From positions 124,001-188,000 of the forward strand of contig CANJLD010000002.1 of NCBI GenBank assembly GCA_947475165.1: 64,000 bases of DNA, written 5' to 3'. Both the position numbers and the translations under genes were made by a program. The notes under the pieces were generated by a model. That model was not told the origin of the DNA and searched no databases. It was given only the letters and a program-made list of their open reading frames with translations. Below, one piece after another: positions 2,657 through 59,461 of the stretch. Each line of letters starts with the position of its first letter. Position 1 is the stretch's first letter. This stretch comes from Bacteroidota bacterium. Lineage in GTDB: Bacteria; Bacteroidota; Bacteroidia; Chitinophagales; LD1.

Positions 2657-2908
2657 GTGTTGATTTATTTAGTGTGAGTGTTCATTGCTTTATTGTGAGC
2701 ATCAATTTCATTGGTGAAAGCAATGATTCCTTTAATGTAAGCATTGATTTCATTATACGGAGCATCAATTTCTTTGCTGTGAGCAATGATTTCATTAGTT
2801 GAAGCGATGATTACTTTGCTGATTATGATGATTACATTATTGTGAGCGTCAATTTCTTTGCTGCGAGCAATGATTACATTAATTGAAGCAACGATTTATT
2901 TGCTGTTA
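2657..2908 (+). repeat. Degenerate 21-bp tandem repeat array A1 (12 units)
   Basis: Twelve consecutive units of exactly 21 bp. Read from the core, units begin GTGAGC, GAAAGC, GTAAGC, CGGAGC or TGAAGC, followed by a 15-bp tail such as AATGATTTCATTAGT or ATCAATTTCTTTGCT. Some tail columns are fixed (ATT at tail positions 5-7, TT at 11-12), while others switch between a few bases, so units are related but rarely identical. One minus-strand frame stays open over most of the array, giving heptads such as IIAHSKE, but it has no in-frame ATG, GTG or TTG near its beginning. The plus frame has TGA stops. It ends 73 bp before the ATG of the HTH gene at 2982 and about 48 bp before that gene's -7 element. 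Confidence 0.9.
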
Positions 2909-2932: not shown

Positions 2933-2964
2933 TTGTGTTTTAGGCTGTTTTTGCTATACTTTTG
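2933..2964 (+). promoter_or_regulatory. Bacteroidota-type promoter of the HTH/coiled-coil gene
   Basis: TACTTTTG at 2957-2964 is an exact match to the Bacteroidota -7 consensus TAnnTTTG. A TTG for the -33 region lies at 2933-2935. The predicted transcript would start roughly 10 bases before the ATG at 2982, so array A1 would be upstream of the promoter rather than in the mRNA. Confidence 0.6.
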
Positions 2965-2981
2965 CATAAAACAACCGTTTT

Positions 2982-3377
2982 ATGGAGAATAATTTTCATG
3001 TGGGAAGTAAAATAGAGCAGCTTCTTGAGGAGCAGCACAGAACCAAACGCGACTTGGGTTTGGATATTGATATGAGCCAGGGAAATGTGGTTTACCTGAC
3101 GAAGCGTGAGAGTATTGATGTGCAAACCCTGCACAAAATTGGTAACAATTTAAAGTATAATTTTTGGAAACATTTTCCGATTGATGACGGTACGAATGCC
3201 GCAACACTTGTTACGGAAAGGGAGAAACAATTAATTACCGAGAAGGATAAAGTGATAGCTGAATTGAACGCGAAGATTGCGGAGCAAGGTAAAGTGATTG
3301 AGGATTTGAAACAGAATTTGGTGAAGCAGGAGAATGATTTTTTGAAGGAAATAAATTCTATGCTAAAGAAGAAATAG
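2982..3377 (+). CDS. Small HTH protein with C-terminal coiled coil, next to array A1
   Basis: A 131-residue protein with two parts. Residues 9-65 look like an XRE-type helix-turn-helix (KIEQLLEEQHRTKRDLGLD, then SQGNVVYLTKR and TLHKIGNNLKYNFWKHF). Residues 75-131 are a charged heptad-rich coiled coil. The motif LKYNFWKHF after the HTH recurs as LKYNFFELF in the protein coded at 31910-32272, which has the same layout and the same kind of 21-bp array upstream. It is probably a DNA-binding protein that oligomerises through its coil; binding to the array is inference. I know of no named family with an assigned function. A stem-loop follows 70 bp after the stop. Confidence 0.85.
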   Translation: MENNFHVGSKIEQLLEEQHRTKRDLGLDIDMSQGNVVYLTKRESIDVQTLHKIGNNLKYNFWKHFPIDDGTNAATLVTEREKQLITEKDKVIAELNAKIAEQGKVIEDLKQNLVKQENDFLKEINSMLKKK

Positions 3378-19795: not shown

Positions 19796-21007
19796 GTGAA
19801 ACATGTTGTAATTATAGGCGGAGGCGCAGCGGGGTTTTTTGCCGCAATCAATTGCGCGGAAAACAATCCCGATTATAAAATTACGATTCTCGAAAAGTCC
19901 TCTTCGCTGCTTAACAAGGTAAAAATTAGCGGAGGTGGAAGATGCAATGTTACGCACGCTTGCTTTGATGCAAAAGAGTTGGTGAAGTTTTATCCGCGTG
20001 GTGAGAAACAATTGCTGGGTCCGTTTACCCGCTTCAATCCTTCTAATACTATTGATTGGTTTAACCAGCGGGGCGTTGAAATAAAAAGGGAAGATGATGG
20101 ACGCATGTTTCCTGCCAGCAATTCTTCTCAAACTATTATTGATTGTTTTTTGAATGAAGCAAAACGATTGGGGGTGAAGATTAGAATGCAATGCGGAGTA
20201 GAAGAAATCAGCATTCAGAATTCAGAATTCAGAATTAAAACAAGCACCGGTGAAGAAATTATTGCCGATGCGATGATTGTTACCACCGGTTCAAGCCATC
20301 GGGTTTGGAAAATGTTGGAAGAGCTTGGGCATACTATTGTAGCACCTGTGCCTTCGCTGTTTACCTTCAACATAAAAGATGAACGAATAAAAGGGTTGGA
20401 AGGATTATCGGTTCCGAATGCAGCAGTGCGTGTATTGGGAACTAATTCAACATTCAGCGTTCCGAATTCGCCATTACTAATTACCCATTGGGGCATGAGC
20501 GGCCCTGCCATACTCCGGTTGAGTGCCTGGGGTGCGCGCGAACTTGCAGAGGTCAATCACCGGTTTGAGGTTGAAGTAAACTGGGTGAACAAAGATTTGA
20601 ATACGGTACAAGAAACGCTGAAACAATTCAAACTAAGTAATCCAAAGAAAGGTGTTTCAACAAACCCTCTCTTCGGTATTCCAAAAAGATTGTGGGAGCG
20701 GCTGACAACTTTAAACTTTAAACTTCAAACTCTAAACTTTGCCGATTTATCAAACCAACAAATAGACTCACTCGCCAAAGAATTAACCGCTTCACGCTTT
20801 TTAGTGAGTGGAAAAAGCACTTACAAGGATGAATTTGTAACCAGTGGCGGGGTAAGTTTGTCCGAAGTGGACTTTCGGACCATGCAAAGCAAAAAGGTTC
20901 CCAACCTGTATTTTGCGGGCGAAGTGCTTGATGTTGACGCTATTACTGGTGGGTTTAACTTTCAGGCGGCATGGACTACTGCCTTCATAGCATCACAGAC
21001 GATTTGA
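19796..21007 (+). CDS. HI0933/BaiN-family FAD-dependent oxidoreductase
   Basis: 403 residues starting at GTG 19796. The FAD-binding motif VVIIGGGAAGFFAAINCA is at the very N-terminus, the family motif KVKISGGGRCNVTHA near residue 45, and the C-terminal GGVSLSEVDFRTMQSKKVPN then LYFAGEVLDVDAITGGFNFQ closes the nucleotide site. Members are usually annotated as NAD(P)/FAD-dependent oxidoreductases or aminoacetone oxidases; the substrate here is unknown. Two segments, QNSEFRIK near residue 140 and LNFKLQTLNF near residue 305, are coded by simple repeats (TCAGAATTCAGAATT and AAACTTTAAACTTC). Confidence 0.9.
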   Translation: MKHVVIIGGGAAGFFAAINCAENNPDYKITILEKSSSLLNKVKISGGGRCNVTHACFDAKELVKFYPRGEKQLLGPFTRFNPSNTIDWFNQRGVEIKREDDGRMFPASNSSQTIIDCFLNEAKRLGVKIRMQCGVEEISIQNSEFRIKTSTGEEIIADAMIVTTGSSHRVWKMLEELGHTIVAPVPSLFTFNIKDERIKGLEGLSVPNAAVRVLGTNSTFSVPNSPLLITHWGMSGPAILRLSAWGARELAEVNHRFEVEVNWVNKDLNTVQETLKQFKLSNPKKGVSTNPLFGIPKRLWERLTTLNFKLQTLNFADLSNQQIDSLAKELTASRFLVSGKSTYKDEFVTSGGVSLSEVDFRTMQSKKVPNLYFAGEVLDVDAITGGFNFQAAWTTAFIASQTI

Positions 21008-31909: not shown

Positions 31910-32272
31910 TCACCCTTTCAACTTCATCTTCGCCATCTCCACCAGCTCCTTCAAATACCTATTCTCCTGCTCCAGCAATTCCATCTTGTGCTTCATGGTA
32001 TTCAACTCATCTTCCTTTGCTTTTAATTGTTCGGCACTGTTTCCCTCGTTCGGTTTCTTTGTCACAAACAATTCAAAGAAATTATACTTCAAAAATTGCC
32101 CCGCTGCAAGCATCTCGCTTATCCGCCAGTCACTTCGCCTCAAAAGTTTATAGGCAGCATCATTACTTACGTGCATGGCTTTAGCCAAATCCACCGCAGT
32201 TAAGTGTTTATTAAACAATTGCTCGCCTGCTATTACGTTCACAAACGGACCCGATTCATTAATTAATCCCAT
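31910..32272 (-). CDS. Small HTH protein with C-terminal coiled coil, next to array A2
   Basis: 120 residues: N-terminal HTH (LTAVDLAKAMHVSNDAAYKL followed by RRSDWRISEMLAAGQFLKYNFF), then a coiled coil at about residues 75-118 (AEQLKAKEDELNTMKHKMEL). Layout and the LKYNFF motif match the protein coded at 2982-3377 (LKYNFWKHF). Both lie next to a 21-bp array placed upstream at 70-73 bp from the start codon. It is a probable DNA-binding, self-associating regulator; binding of the array is inference. The related HTH segment is divergent, so the two are distant paralogues rather than recent copies. Confidence 0.85.
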   Translation of the reverse strand: MGLINESGPFVNVIAGEQLFNKHLTAVDLAKAMHVSNDAAYKLLRRSDWRISEMLAAGQFLKYNFFELFVTKKPNEGNSAEQLKAKEDELNTMKHKMELLEQENRYLKELVEMAKMKLKG

Positions 32273-32289
32273 ATTTTATACGTTTCACG

Positions 32290-32296
32290 CAAAATA
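32290..32296 (-). promoter_or_regulatory. Candidate -7 element of the A2-linked HTH gene
   Basis: Minus-strand TATTTTG, one base short of TAnnTTTG, lies about 18 bp before the ATG at 32272. The near edge of array A2 is 46 bp further upstream, close to the 48 bp measured for array A1. Confidence 0.4.
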
Positions 32297-32342
32297 AAGC
32301 ATGATTTTCGAAAAAATACAGTTAACGGTAGCTTATTTGCAT

Positions 32343-32573
32343 CTTACAATACATATTACTTAACTAACAATAGCAAATACTTATCTAACAATCTATAAAA
32401 CTTGTGTTCAAATACATAAAACTTATCTATAAATACCTACTTCTTTACTTACAATTCACAGAACACAATTTTCAATTGAATCTTCTTCACTTACAATAAA
32501 TTTTACTCATCTTACAATAACAAAAGCTCAACTAACAATATATAAAGCTCATCTTCATAGATTCAGCAAACCT
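32343..32573 (-). repeat. Degenerate 21-bp tandem repeat array A2 (11 units)
   Basis: Eleven units of exactly 21 bp, near-constant in spacing and variable in text. In the direction of the HTH gene (minus strand) units begin ATGAGC, TTGAGC, ATGAGT, ATAAGT, ACAAGT or TTAAGT, followed by tails such as TTTATATATTGTTAG. The core matches that of A1. Translation in the gene-sense frame meets many stops (TAG, TAA, TGA), so it is not coding. It begins 70 bp upstream of the HTH gene's start codon and ends 81 bp before the TauD-type gene. The rest of the 382-bp gap holds nothing else seen. Confidence 0.9.
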
Positions 32574-32654
32574 GTCTTTTGCATTTTATTTCTTCAATCT
32601 AAAATCGTTAATCCTTGTTCTGAAATCAATTTGCATTTATTTTACTTGCACATC

Positions 32655-33701
32655 ATGAAACAATCCTTCCTAAACACCCAACAACTTCCGCTAATTATCG
32701 AACCCAACGGCAATGGAAACTCCAAGCGGGAATTATTGCAATGGATGAAAAGCAACAAAGCAGAACTCGAGAAAAAATTTTTCCAACACGGTGCAATTCT
32801 CTTTCGCGGTTTTGATATCGATACTCCAAAAGCATTTGAAGATGTGGCACTGCAAGTCGACAACCGGCTTAAGAACGATTACTACGGCACTTCTCCGCGC
32901 AATATTGTAAAGGACACTACTTATATCTACACCGCCAGCGAACTGCCCGGTTACTACCCCATTCCGCAGCATTGCGAAATGACCTATGTAAAGCACCCGC
33001 CCATCAGCATATTTTTTTATTGCCACGTGGAACCTGATTACGGTGGCGAATCGCCCTTGTGTAATTTCAGGAAAGTGTATGCCGATATGAATCCGAAGAT
33101 TAGAGAAGAGTTTGACACCAAAGGCATCATCACCGTGCGCAATTATTCGAACCCTAAAAAATCTTCGCGCCTCAATTTATTTCAGCTCAAAAAGTGGAAC
33201 GAAATTTTTCATACCGATAATAAAGCCGAAGTAGAAAAACAATGCCGCGAACAGGAAATAGAATTTGAATGGTTAGGTGATGATAACCTTCGTTTGCTTC
33301 ACCGCACACCGGCAACCATCAAGCATCCGGTAACCGGTGAAACTGTTTGGTTCAACCACGCACAGGTTTTTCATCCTGCAAGCGCACCGGTAGAATATAA
33401 ATTTATTCACGCGCATCAGCAGCGCACAAAAACTTTGTTCTGGAAATTATTCATCAGTGCCATGGTTAAAATCAAATCACTCCACACCGCACCCATCGAC
33501 CAAAGCATGAACGTATTATTTGGCGATGGCTCACCGGTACCGGATAGTTACATGCAGCACGTTGAAGAAGTAATCTGGAAAAACCTGGTCATCATCCCTT
33601 GGAAGAAAAACGATGTAATAGCCTTAGATAATTTCAGCACCTCGCATGGAAGATTACCTTACGAAGGCAAGCGACAAATTTTAGTTTGCTGGAGCGCTTA
33701 A
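32655..33701 (+). CDS. TauD/TfdA-family Fe(II)/2-oxoglutarate dioxygenase
   Basis: 348 residues from ATG 32655 (MKQSFLNTQQL). The metal-binding H-x-D/E motif is QHCEMTYV near residue 110, and the distal His is in STSHGRLPYEGKRQIL near the C-terminus with the 2-oxoglutarate-binding Arg after it. GAILFRGFD near residue 55 is the usual opening of the fold. The substrate is unknown; members use taurine, sulfonates, or biosynthetic intermediates such as clavaminate and peptides. No sulfonate transport genes are nearby. It lies beside array A2. Confidence 0.88.
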   Translation: MKQSFLNTQQLPLIIEPNGNGNSKRELLQWMKSNKAELEKKFFQHGAILFRGFDIDTPKAFEDVALQVDNRLKNDYYGTSPRNIVKDTTYIYTASELPGYYPIPQHCEMTYVKHPPISIFFYCHVEPDYGGESPLCNFRKVYADMNPKIREEFDTKGIITVRNYSNPKKSSRLNLFQLKKWNEIFHTDNKAEVEKQCREQEIEFEWLGDDNLRLLHRTPATIKHPVTGETVWFNHAQVFHPASAPVEYKFIHAHQQRTKTLFWKLFISAMVKIKSLHTAPIDQSMNVLFGDGSPVPDSYMQHVEEVIWKNLVIIPWKKNDVIALDNFSTSHGRLPYEGKRQILVCWSA

Positions 33702-37307: not shown

Positions 37308-38108
37308 ATGGAAAAAATCAGCAGCCCACAAAATCCGAAAATTAAAAACCTGAAGAAGCTTGAAAAAGCGAGCGAGCGCAGAGAACAAAATTTGATTTTG
37401 ATTGAAGGTTTGCGCGAGACAGTTTTAGCGCACCGTGCGGGCTATGAAATAGAGTCGCTTTTTATTTGTGAAGAGATTTTGAAAATGGATGGAGAATATT
37501 CTTTAGCAGAAATCAGAAATCAGAAATCAGAAATCAGAAAATTCGAAATAACCAAAGCAGTTTATGATTCACTCGCATATCGTGAAACTACCGAAGGCGT
37601 TATTGCTGCTGCAAGACCAAAAAATCTTTCGCTCGAAAATCTTCAGCTGAAAAAAAATTGTTTGGTGCTGGTAATAGAAGCAGTAGAAAAACCCGGTAAC
37701 CTCGGAGCCATGTTGCGCACCTGCGATGCTGCCGGTGTAGATGCCGTAATTATTTGCGATGCAAAAACAGATGTGTACAATCCAAATGCAATCCGTTCGA
37801 GTGTGGGAACAGTATTTACCAATCAGATTGCTGTTTGCGAAACAAAACAAGCGATTGAATTTTTGAAGAAGAACAACATAACCACCTATGCCGCTGAGTT
37901 GAGTGCCACAAAATTTCATTACCAGCAAAATTTTAAAACAGCCACAGCCATTGTAGTAGGAACCGAAGCCACCGGGCTAAGTGACGAATGGATAAATGCA
38001 GCGGAGGAAAAAATAAAAATTCCGATGCTGGGAGAAATTGATTCGCTGAATGTAAGCGTAAGCGCAGGTATACTTTTGTTTGAAGCGGTGAGACAAAGAG
38101 CATTTTGA
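37308..38108 (+). CDS. TrmH/SpoU-family RNA 2'-O-methyltransferase
   Basis: 266 residues. The N-terminal substrate-binding domain (EKISSPQNPKIKNLKKLEKA) is followed by the SPOUT domain: VIEAVEKPGNLGAMLRTCDA (motif 1 near residue 125), IVVGTEATGLSDEWINAA (motif 2) and IPMLGEIDSLNVSVSAGILL (motif 3). It methylates rRNA or tRNA; the exact target is open. A segment SLAEIRNQKSEIRKFEI near residue 65 is coded by CAGAAATCAGAAATCAGAA, a simple repeat expansion found in several other genes here. Confidence 0.9.
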   Translation: MEKISSPQNPKIKNLKKLEKASERREQNLILIEGLRETVLAHRAGYEIESLFICEEILKMDGEYSLAEIRNQKSEIRKFEITKAVYDSLAYRETTEGVIAAARPKNLSLENLQLKKNCLVLVIEAVEKPGNLGAMLRTCDAAGVDAVIICDAKTDVYNPNAIRSSVGTVFTNQIAVCETKQAIEFLKKNNITTYAAELSATKFHYQQNFKTATAIVVGTEATGLSDEWINAAEEKIKIPMLGEIDSLNVSVSAGILLFEAVRQRAF

Positions 38109-50505: not shown

Positions 50506-51222
50506 ATGAGTAACGAAGAAATTGCCCAACTTAGAGCTAATAATGAGCGTTTAGCTAAGATTATAGACATAGTTGTGGAGCAGAATGAGCTCCTTAAGCT
50601 TGAAAATGCCTTCCTTAAGAAAGCGTTGACACCTAAAGACATGATTAATTCCTTTGCTAAAATTGGCGTAGCCCTTAAAGACAAAGAAAATGCCCTTGTT
50701 AAGCTAGACGGAGGGCTTCGTACTGGTACGAACGACCCTGTAAGTTTTAAGGAGGGCAATAATAACGTTGCCGAAGGGATAGCAAACATTAAGGAAGGCA
50801 ATAATAATGATACGACAGGCAGAGTAAATAATAGCCAAGGCATTAATAACAATGCGGGAGGTATGGTAGAAGCTGACAAAGCCAGTAACAACATTACCGA
50901 AACAATGCTGCAAACTATTGAACCCACTAATGAAATTATTGGAGCATTAGAAAAAGAACTCCGGGCATCCGGTTACAATAGAGTAAGCCATAGCGGAGTA
51001 AACAATGCCGCAAAACTTATAATTCACTTCTACAACAAAGGCGATGGAAGCTATCCGCAGTTGAAAAAGATAACCGGTCACTCCACCGATGGTATTGCCA
51101 AGTTTATTATGAGCATGAAAAAACGCGGATGGATACACCGGTACGGTTTTCAGCAGTTTGGTTTAACCGAGAACGGTGTAGCGTTGATTAAACAGGCACT
51201 GACGAAAAGCAGGGAAAACTGA
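50506..51222 (+). CDS. Coiled-coil / winged-helix protein containing array A3
   Basis: 238 residues. Residues 1-45 form a coiled coil (IAQLRANNERLAKIIDIVVE). The middle, about 65-134, is made of seven-residue repeats such as SFKEGNN, NVAEGIA, NIKEGNN, NDTTGRV and NNSQGIN. Residues about 150-235 look like a winged helix (YPQLKKITGHSTDGIAKFIM then GWIHRYGFQQFGLTENGVAL). The middle part is the coding reading of a 21-bp array. No family name known. A possible -7 element, TACCTTCG, with one mismatch, lies upstream near 50480-50487. It may be related in type to the HTH proteins at 2982 and 31910. Confidence 0.8.
   Translation: MSNEEIAQLRANNERLAKIIDIVVEQNELLKLENAFLKKALTPKDMINSFAKIGVALKDKENALVKLDGGLRTGTNDPVSFKEGNNNVAEGIANIKEGNNNDTTGRVNNSQGINNNAGGMVEADKASNNITETMLQTIEPTNEIIGALEKELRASGYNRVSHSGVNNAAKLIIHFYNKGDGSYPQLKKITGHSTDGIAKFIMSMKKRGWIHRYGFQQFGLTENGVALIKQALTKSREN
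50698..50907 (+). repeat. Coding 21-bp tandem repeat array A3 (10 units)
   Basis: Ten 21-bp units inside the 50506 gene. Cores at 50698, 50740, 50761, 50782, 50803, 50824, 50845, 50866 and 50887 read GTTAAG, GTAAGT, AATAAC, GCAAAC, AATAAT, GTAAAT, AATAAC, GTAGAA and AACAAC; the unit at 50719 is weak. They resemble the RTRARY core of arrays A1, A2 and A4. Alternate units begin with AATAA and with GTAA, so a 42-bp higher-order period is also visible. The frame is kept, with a seven-residue protein repeat. Confidence 0.8.
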
Positions 51223-51626: not shown

Positions 51627-53099
51627 TTAGAACTGATACCTAAACCCACCGGTTAAACCAAAATTATACTTGCGCTTATCCTGCACACCAATTTTTTGCA
51701 GACTCATATAGAACATGGGCTCGGCAAAAAGGAGGAAATGTTTTTTAGCCACATACTCAAAACCAGCACCGGCATAAAAAGAAGCATAGTAACGTTTAGC
51801 TTTATTAATAGAGAAATCTTTTGTGCTGGTTTCGCCACCGGCGCTTAACGCATCTGCTGATTTGTTATTTACGTCAAAGCTTGTTTGATAAGGAAGAGAA
51901 GAAGGGTCGAAGAGATTATTGGGAATAGAGGCAATTCCTGTATCGGTTGGCATACTATAGCTAAATGTTTCTTTCAGTTTAATATAATTGATAATACCGG
52001 TGTTTATGTAAAAACGGAAATTATTTTTTACCACCGGATAAACTTTAATACCAATAGGAATAGCCAACTCGGTAATATGCGAAGTGTAATTGGTTGGTGC
52101 TACTGCAAACGAAACTGTTTTAGGTTGATAAACTTTGAAAGAAGTTTGCGAAAACAGAATGGAATTAGTAATGGCAATACGATTGATAAAAAGAAAATCG
52201 TGCGTTAAGCCAACCATATAGGAAGGTTGTGAATAGAATAAGGCGGAACGTTTTGGCACATTAGGGATAGTTTCTTGCTTGCCTAAAGTTGTTCCGGTAA
52301 CATTTGCCAGCACACCAATCGAATAATTGAAAATCTTTTTCTTCTGCTTAAGCAAAACGTCTTCTTCTTTTTTATCGAAAGAAGTAGTTGCATTTTCAGA
52401 AACATAACCAAGCAGTGATGCTTCCATTCGGTTTAATCTGATATTTTCTTCTGAAGACGCTTTTGCAGCAGCACTCAGCATTTCCATTTCGTTTTGAATA
52501 GGTGTTATCGGATGCGAGTTGCGAGTAGCTGGTTTGTGATTTGCTGTTTGTTGTTTGCTGTTGTGTTGTTGCTTATTGCTTATTGCCAATTGCTTCTTTC
52601 CTTTCGAAAATACATTGGTGCGCGGATGACGCGGATTAAATGGATTCACACGGATAGATGCAATTAAACTTTTGTTCTTTGTATTTTCTGATTTTGTATT
52701 GCGCGCCTTAATTGAATTTATTTCCGATTTCTGATTTCTGATTTCTGATTTCGCTACCGGGGCATTTACTTTTAGCTTTTCACTTTTCACTTTTACTTTC
52801 TCCGGCTCATTGCCACTGCTCACTACCGCTATTGTATTTCCCGTTGTCTGCGGTCTATCGTCTGTCGTCTCAATGGCTAACTGCTTATCATCTTCCTCCA
52901 TTAAATACAAACTCCAGCCTATACTGCCTACCGCTAATACTAATACCGCAGCTACACCACCGGTCCACCACCAAAAAAATCCTCTGCGCTTTTTCTTTTT
53001 ATCCAGCATGGCTTCCATCTGCTCCCACGCCTGCGGGTCGAACGGAAACTCGGTGCTGCTGAGTTTATCGCGCAATTGTTTATCGCTGTTATTTTCCAT
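51627..53099 (-). CDS. Membrane-anchored partner of the ECF sigma factor with repeat-derived linker
   Basis: About 490 residues from ATG 53099 (MENNSDKQLRDKLSSTEF). Residues 1-40 look like a cytoplasmic sigma-binding segment, a transmembrane helix is at about 43-66, then a long linker, then a C-terminal beta-barrel-like outer-membrane protein domain ending in GFRYQF. The linker (about 70-210) is built largely from simple-repeat text: DDRPQTTGN, KVKSEKLKV, SEIRNQKSEI, ISNKQQHNSKQQTANHKP. It follows the sigma gene with an overlap of a few bases. The arrangement suggests an anti-sigma or signalling protein; that is inference. Confidence 0.75.
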   Translation of the reverse strand: MENNSDKQLRDKLSSTEFPFDPQAWEQMEAMLDKKKKRRGFFWWWTGGVAAVLVLAVGSIGWSLYLMEEDDKQLAIETTDDRPQTTGNTIAVVSSGNEPEKVKVKSEKLKVNAPVAKSEIRNQKSEINSIKARNTKSENTKNKSLIASIRVNPFNPRHPRTNVFSKGKKQLAISNKQQHNSKQQTANHKPATRNSHPITPIQNEMEMLSAAAKASSEENIRLNRMEASLLGYVSENATTSFDKKEEDVLLKQKKKIFNYSIGVLANVTGTTLGKQETIPNVPKRSALFYSQPSYMVGLTHDFLFINRIAITNSILFSQTSFKVYQPKTVSFAVAPTNYTSHITELAIPIGIKVYPVVKNNFRFYINTGIINYIKLKETFSYSMPTDTGIASIPNNLFDPSSLPYQTSFDVNNKSADALSAGGETSTKDFSINKAKRYYASFYAGAGFEYVAKKHFLLFAEPMFYMSLQKIGVQDKRKYNFGLTGGFRYQF

Positions 53100-59112: not shown

Positions 59113-59201
59113 TTTAAAGGCAGAATTCTCAAAAAGCGCCATTTTTTTGTTAAAACAGGTATTTACCCCACTTGTTATACCCCCCTCCCCCCACTTCAAA
59201 G

Positions 59202-59461
59202 GTGAACTAGGTTCACCAAAAAGGTAAGCCGGTTCACCTAAAAAATGAACGAGCTTAGCTAAAAGACAAACATACTTCAGCCCAAAGGTAAACGTGCTTA
59301 CCTCAATTGTTAACGGACTCATTTGAAAGGTTAACAGGCTCACCTCAGAGGCAAGCCCCCTCGCTTAAAATCCAAACCGGAGCCCGCTCACTTTTTTAAT
59401 GAACGGGCTCGTATAAAACGTGAACCGGCTTGCCTTTCAGCTAAACATTAAGCCAAGGGTA
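59202..59461 (+). repeat. Degenerate 21-bp tandem repeat array A4 (12 units), orphan
   Basis: Cores at 59202, 59224, 59245, 59266, 59288, 59309, 59330, 59351, 59372, 59399, 59420 and 59441 read GTGAAC, GTAAGC, ATGAAC, ACAAAC, GTAAAC, GTTAAC, GTTAAC, GCAAGC, CCAAAC, ATGAAC, GTGAAC and CTAAAC. Spacing is 22, 21, 21, 22, 21, 21, 21, 21, 27, 21 and 21. The 27-bp step is a 6-bp insertion, GAGCCC. Tails are of the CGGCTTACCTCA type. It lies in the 351-bp gap between the M48 and bshA genes, which are convergent, and no HTH/coiled-coil gene is beside it. Stops occur in all long readings. Confidence 0.85.

Follow-up and report, generated by a model that had tools for sequence, protein, structure and literature searches.

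Cro/CI-type autoregulators such as the lambda and P22 repressors, SinR and the C proteins bind operators of two to four sites. Tandem sites beside the gene of a DNA-binding protein are also known from iterons, in which sites of ~20-22 bp adjoin a plasmid replication initiator gene, and from centromere-like parC/parS loci, in which the array lies beside the gene of a small DNA-binding protein, ParR or TubR. The MerR-like protein BldC oligomerises cooperatively on direct repeats of variable number; these repeats are contiguous and 9 bp long, the protein has no coiled coil and its targets are many and distant (PMC5859096).

The locus analysed here, A2, lies in a 64,000-nucleotide stretch (the window) of contig C2 of genome G000 (3.88 Mb, 45 contigs), which also holds a paralogous locus, A1. 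Its likeness to the Cro/CI-type autoregulators lies in the HTH fold, the small size of the protein, the position of the sites beside its own promoter and, in some arrays of the family, palindromic units. It differs from them by the number of sites (8-19 in the family, the longest array having ~19 units), by their fixed 21-bp period, by being private to each paralogue with coordinated turnover, and by a C-terminal coiled coil in place of a sensor or antitoxin partner. Textbook autoregulation does not explain 8-19 sites before one gene. As with iterons, tandem sites adjoin the gene of their (here putative) binding protein, but they are chromosomal, belong to many paralogues per genome and come with no Rep domain. 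Unlike parC/parS, neither A1 nor A2 is adjoined by a motor NTPase gene and, unlike the sites of BldC, the repeats have a period of 21 bp and the A2 array is found at its own locus only. We found no description of such arrays in the literature (open-licence papers).

Results

The A2 gene occupies positions 31910-32272 of the minus strand, on a 271-kb contig and among housekeeping genes. Its translation gives a protein of 120 aa (P0001) with a Cro/CI-like HTH at about residues 11-69 and a C-terminal coiled-coil helix at 79-119; the AlphaFold2 model (mean pLDDT 79) comprises five HTH helices (11-21, 26-33, 37-45, 51-61 and 65-69) followed by one long helix. The A1 gene (2982-3377, plus strand) encodes an HTH and coiled-coil paralogue of 131 aa. 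Both proteins contain LKYNF and are 28% identical (pairwise E 2e-7), in agreement with the distant paralogy stated in the original prediction. P0001 itself matches no HTH Pfam family above the cut-off. However, profile comparison gives a match to the P22 C2 repressor (E 0.006), HTH_3 and HTH_26 are each found in 6 of 32 family members, and Foldseek returns SinR, HigA, HipB and C.Esp1396I with a probability of ~1 at E values of 0.01-0.06 (best 0.011). Sequence and predicted-fold comparison place the HTH with the Cro/CI-type repressors, and both the profile matches and the predicted helices agree with the five-helix HTH of XRE regulators. In place of the MerR-like winged HTH and 9-bp repeats of BldC, we find a Cro/CI-like predicted fold, a 41-residue C-terminal helix and a period of 21. 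The Pfam content of the neighbours and the housekeeping surroundings of A2 do not fit a partition or Rep locus; A1 and A2 are flanked by housekeeping genes and not, as a C protein gene would be, by restriction and modification genes, and neither locus has the toxin-like neighbour of a HigA or HipB antitoxin. A phage search with P0001 gave no match and the plasmid search a single weak one, for P0002, on which grounds a phage or plasmid origin was rejected.

Upstream of the A2 gene, at 32343-32554 of the minus strand, lies an array of about ten 21-bp units with the gene-strand consensus AGATAAGTATTATnTATTGTA. Ten units are clear and others are decayed and partial, so that the eleven originally counted are a fair number. 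Arrays were scored as matches minus mismatches between a sequence and its lag-shifted self over the best local segment. At A2 the best self-match among lags 8-60 is at lag 21, with a score of 45, compared with a maximum of 17 over the same lags in 400 dinucleotide shuffles of the intergenic region. When the 64-kb window was scanned at lags 8-89, lag 21 scored at least 20 only at A1 and A2, and the lag-21 maximum of ten shuffled windows was 12. The A1 array (2657-2905, plus strand) consists of 21-bp units with a 42-bp alternation and scores 47 at lag 21 (segment 2657-2896) and 69 at lag 42. As first proposed, A2 can be regarded as another gene-array module like A1.

The original prediction went further and held that period, core and geometry are all kept between the two arrays, which is true of the period. 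In the best register, the units of A1 and A2 have a similarity of 0.36, within the range of arrays of unrelated proteins (median 0.27, 90th percentile 0.38); a shared core is not above chance and was rejected. The distance from array to start is not a family constant, as it ranges from ~2 to 186 bp among paralogues. At A2 it is 70 bp, exactly as claimed; at A1 it is 76-85 bp, according to the end chosen for the last unit, rather than the claimed 73 bp. Neither array has an open frame in any of the six frames, and a coding repeat as array origin was rejected for this reason; some other arrays of the family retain one open frame. The A2 units show no dyad, and palindromic units reach significance in no more than about one array in four, which excludes that all units are palindromic. 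A structured RNA was likewise rejected, there being no Rfam match, and sigma-70 and terminator scans gave nothing informative.

The leader between array and start codon (32273-32342, minus strand) is the promoter region and contains a -7-like element, TTATTTTG (32290-32297, minus strand), with one mismatch to the Bacteroidota TAnnTTTG. The corresponding element of A1, TACTTTTG (2957-2964, plus strand), is an exact match, and at both loci the element starts 25 bp before the ATG. Exact TAnnTTTG stands at this same -25 position at L006, L007, L010 and L149 as well as A1, and within 1 bp of it at L009, L095, L156 and L171; between -40 and -18 it occurs in 12 of 57 array genes, when 1.2 would be expected. 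The intergenic region that holds the A2 array is shared with a divergent gene for a TauD/TfdA-family dioxygenase (32631-33701, plus strand; Pfam PF02668), whose homologous start is probably the ATG at 32656. At seven other HTH-CC modules (L002, L032, L153, L042, L046, L047 and L051), the array is faced by a divergent gene of a ~325-aa family without a Pfam match.

A syntenic orthologue of the A2 gene, 83% identical and with the same divergent TauD (89% identical), is present in G004. Array and leader align over 283 bp with 0 gap columns, at 79% identity in the array and 84% in the leader, whereas the adjoining flank towards TauD shows 34 gap columns and 63% identity. Within the units, 39 of the 40 ATTG core positions are unchanged in G004, compared with 2 of 10 for position 14, a spacer position. 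This pattern indicates purifying selection on the repeated core and on spacing; selection on spacing, which had been suggested from the two paralogous arrays, is thus borne out between orthologues.

A profile search of G000 identified nine such HTH-CC genes, every one preceded by a 21-bp array (seven clear; L023 and L041 weaker, with scores of 26 and 18). Relatives are found at E <= 1e-5 in 113 of the 295 genomes of a class sample, and a phylum sample has matches at the stricter E <= 1e-10 in 16 of 296 genomes, all of them, among the matches listed, in the same class; the genomes are draft MAGs. We then consider 157 distinct relatives with enough upstream DNA. Applying our own threshold of a score of at least 18, arrays precede 59 of them, which is not a prevalence estimate since the sample favours strong profile matches; the other 98 have no array at this score, and some of these perhaps have only two sites. 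The lag is 21, 42 or 44 in 57 of the 59 (38, 13 and 6 arrays, respectively), and 16 and 22 in one each. Genes with 44-bp (2 x 22) arrays form a subfamily of their own (L097, L105, L132, L242, L253 and L260). As controls we used 190 upstream regions, taken from the window and from the loci retrieved for the family, after removal of overlaps with known arrays. Four of these reached 18, at lags 8, 14, 23 and 42, and the lag-42 region, the sole one at lag 21, 42 or 44, overlies an array inside the P0003 gene (see below). All arrays at lags 21, 42 and 44 lie directly upstream of the gene, bar three weak signals in coding sequence, for which coiled-coil heptads probably account. No array at these lags is found downstream of an HTH-CC gene; the one downstream of L065 has lag 63. 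In the window and in the control upstream regions, period-21 autocorrelation is not common outside such genes, and the class as a whole contains homologous pairs of gene and array, so that neither of the two refuting conditions named with the original prediction holds. What stays constant in the family is the period of 21 bp, replaced in some members by 42 or 44, and the location of the array immediately before the gene.

In the basal HIGEKI subfamily (MKVHIGEKI...; L013, L014, L016, L028 and L043), the array is reduced to a pair of direct repeats with a spacing of 21 bp, located between about -84 and -43, which in L013 read AGTTAATT-N13-AGTTAATT. We infer that this arrangement represents the ancestral operator. 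A decayed relative of the A2 gene, L045 (G010, contig C39), has lost its start and contains a stop; a 42-bp palindromic array, with the core CATTGTATCAATACAATG, nevertheless remains upstream.

The genome holds no second copy of the A2 array and thus lacks a remote target array of this type, a result that concerns arrays and is compatible with single scattered sites; a shared regulon motif was rejected on this basis. Below 70% HTH identity, the median array similarity is about 0.31-0.32, compared with 0.27 for unrelated pairs, and modules that share one divergent neighbour in three species of the genus have differing units (AAGAAACCCCATTTCGGAAAT, TTACGACAGCCGTTGTCGGAT and CGCTTACCAGTTTAGGTAAGC). 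In pairs with at least 70% HTH identity, array similarity correlates with recognition-helix identity (rho 0.62, p 0.007) rather than with the remaining HTH (rho 0.25, p 0.34), the pairs being non-independent in both cases. In a unit-by-unit alignment of the arrays of the orthologues L002 and L032, 9 of 10 units differ at position 13 and none at positions 1, 8, 9, 12, 14 and 15; the recognition helix differs as well (WYETAITRLL vs WKEPAVTKLL). In L034, L048 and L049, whose proteins are 77-84% identical, the palindromic half-sites differ along with the helix: L048 and L049, both with KRSSV, share AACAnTGTT in their arrays, which is absent from L034, with GQSSV. Turnover and helix tracking would be best explained by a protein that binds its own array.

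Two other loci carry duplicates of the A1 gene along with its array. Homology between A1 and the copy on contig C16 runs from 3373 to 2637 and covers gene, leader, array and ~20 bp, hence little else, which implies that gene and array were copied jointly. Over 784 bp, the copies on C16 and C37 share 94% identity. The two G000 contigs have their first bases in common, 109 bp beyond the A1-like gene; this shared start points to an assembly break within a repeat and perhaps to additional copies.

Discussion

Regular arrays of differing sequence before related genes point to a widespread and fast-diversifying self-recognition switch. We consider it likely that the array is an expanded autoregulatory operator, bound cooperatively on one DNA face by the product of its own gene; cognate-protein binding, cooperativity and autoregulation are all deduced here from sequence. 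In favour of this explanation are the association of arrays with these genes, the privacy and gap-free conservation of the A2 array beside its promoter, the joint change of units and recognition helix, the co-duplication of A1 with its array, the two-site form of the basal subfamily, and the predicted fold and promoter element. In the mechanism that we propose, the HTH/coiled-coil protein would recognise the 21-bp units before its own gene and nowhere else. The spacing of 21 bp corresponds to two helical turns of B-DNA, which would bring the proteins side by side on one face, where their coiled-coil tails could pair between neighbours or bridge DNA. The resulting cooperative nucleoprotein array would form next to the promoter, and its occupancy may set transcription of the gene, possibly also that of the divergent neighbour, with a sharp threshold. 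Such an array would have grown from an ancestral operator made up of two direct repeats at 21-bp spacing. A change of the recognition helix would be followed by a change of all units, which would keep the paralogues of one genome orthogonal.

A1 and A2 are of the direct-repeat class, whose arrays stop just short of the presumed -33 region on its upstream side, a position that suits an activator or a looping repressor. Many palindromic arrays come as close as 2-40 bp to the ATG, a placement suited to repression. Because these positions suit different signs, our proposal commits to autoregulation and not to its sign, and the variable distance between array and start means that one RNA polymerase contact mechanism cannot fit all modules. 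Other points against the explanation are that the A2 units show no dyad on which a dimer would readily sit, that 98 of the 157 relatives have no array at our threshold, that P0001 falls below the Pfam cut-offs with a best Foldseek E value of just 0.011, and that the pairwise statistics rest on non-independent pairs.

The array could instead be the site of a structural complex, centromere-like, nucleoid-anchoring or DNA-bridging. Its coiled coils would then connect distant DNA, and the gene would lie nearby only so that protein and site stay together. Arrays of up to ~19 units exceed the need of simple autoregulation, coiled-coil tails are present, fast sequence turnover at a fixed period resembles centromere-type evolution, and a second family (P0003) keeps its array inside the gene. 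We nevertheless find this unlikely, as no ParA/TubZ-type NTPase lies beside A1 or A2, the copies are many per chromosome and stand at unrelated loci, the array is followed by a promoter element at a shared position, and the basal subfamily has only two sites, in operator position. It is quite improbable that another host factor binds the array and drives the gene while the HTH protein acts elsewhere: upstream sites are common among promoters, but such a factor would need one shared motif, when the units of paralogues are unrelated and array change tracks the recognition helix. We also give little credence to an array that mainly regulates the divergent neighbour (TauD at A2, the ~325-aa family at seven modules), the HTH gene being that neighbour's dedicated regulator. 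The array does lie between divergent genes at A1, at A2 and at the seven modules with the shared partner; however, neighbours differ between most modules (potassium channel/rubrerythrin-like at A1, a dioxygenase at A2) and duplication of the module left the neighbour behind. A conserved neighbour as the true target was rejected on similar grounds, since neighbours vary and the ~325-aa partner is absent from A1 and A2. Finally, neutral tandem duplication or slippage, or remnants of heptad coding (21 bp being 7 codons), would fit a period that is a multiple of 3 and the one open frame kept by some arrays, but is hardly credible given the lack of an open frame in all six at A1 and A2, the absence of indels between orthologues, the position-specific conservation and the confinement of array-bearing upstream regions to HTH-CC genes.

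If the autoregulatory proposal is true, Bacteroidota are a rich natural source of orthogonal regulator-operator pairs, each with its recognition helix and its target legible at one locus, so that a Cro/CI recognition code becomes testable at scale and insulated parts for gene circuits become available. The coordinated change of at least ten sites at fixed spacing would then be an unusually clear case of regulator-operator coevolution.

The P0003 gene (50506-51222, plus strand) contains a 42-bp array at 50747-50938 and belongs to a family unrelated to HTH-CC. Its protein, which has a weak PF24409 match, is predicted to form an N-terminal coiled coil (3-39) and a winged-helix-like domain (142-237), separated by a stretch with pLDDT <50 (66-134); the array encodes this low-confidence stretch. 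All 12 closely analysed homologues in the genus have an in-frame 42-bp array, and both the units and the encoded peptides are unrelated between members. Third codon positions repeat like the first and second (e.g. 0.66 vs 0.61 and 0.64), which suggests that the DNA and not the peptide is repeated, although recent duplication could produce the same third-position repetition. Tentatively, private helically phased arrays might be a general Bacteroidota self-recognition device, used by at least two unrelated coiled-coil DNA-binding families (HTH-CC and that of P0003), with protein and array co-diversifying to stay orthogonal to every other copy in the cell, as a large set of insulated heritable or threshold switches or of chromosomal landmarks.

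Other repeats occur in the window. An array of about eleven imperfect palindromes of the GGTGAAC..GTTCACC type, spaced by 21-22 bp, occupies 59196-59445; the genes on either side are convergent, and no HTH gene accompanies it. Another copy, with 74% identity and likewise between convergent genes, is found at 1501-1770 of L216, on contig C11. Heptamer direct repeats near start codons have been described in Beggiatoaceae, Cyanobacteria and some Bacteroidetes (PMC4679880), and arrays of 7-bp units are present in the window at 20203-20236, 20707-20740, 37507-37540, 52532-52601, 52720-52752 and 52768-52799.
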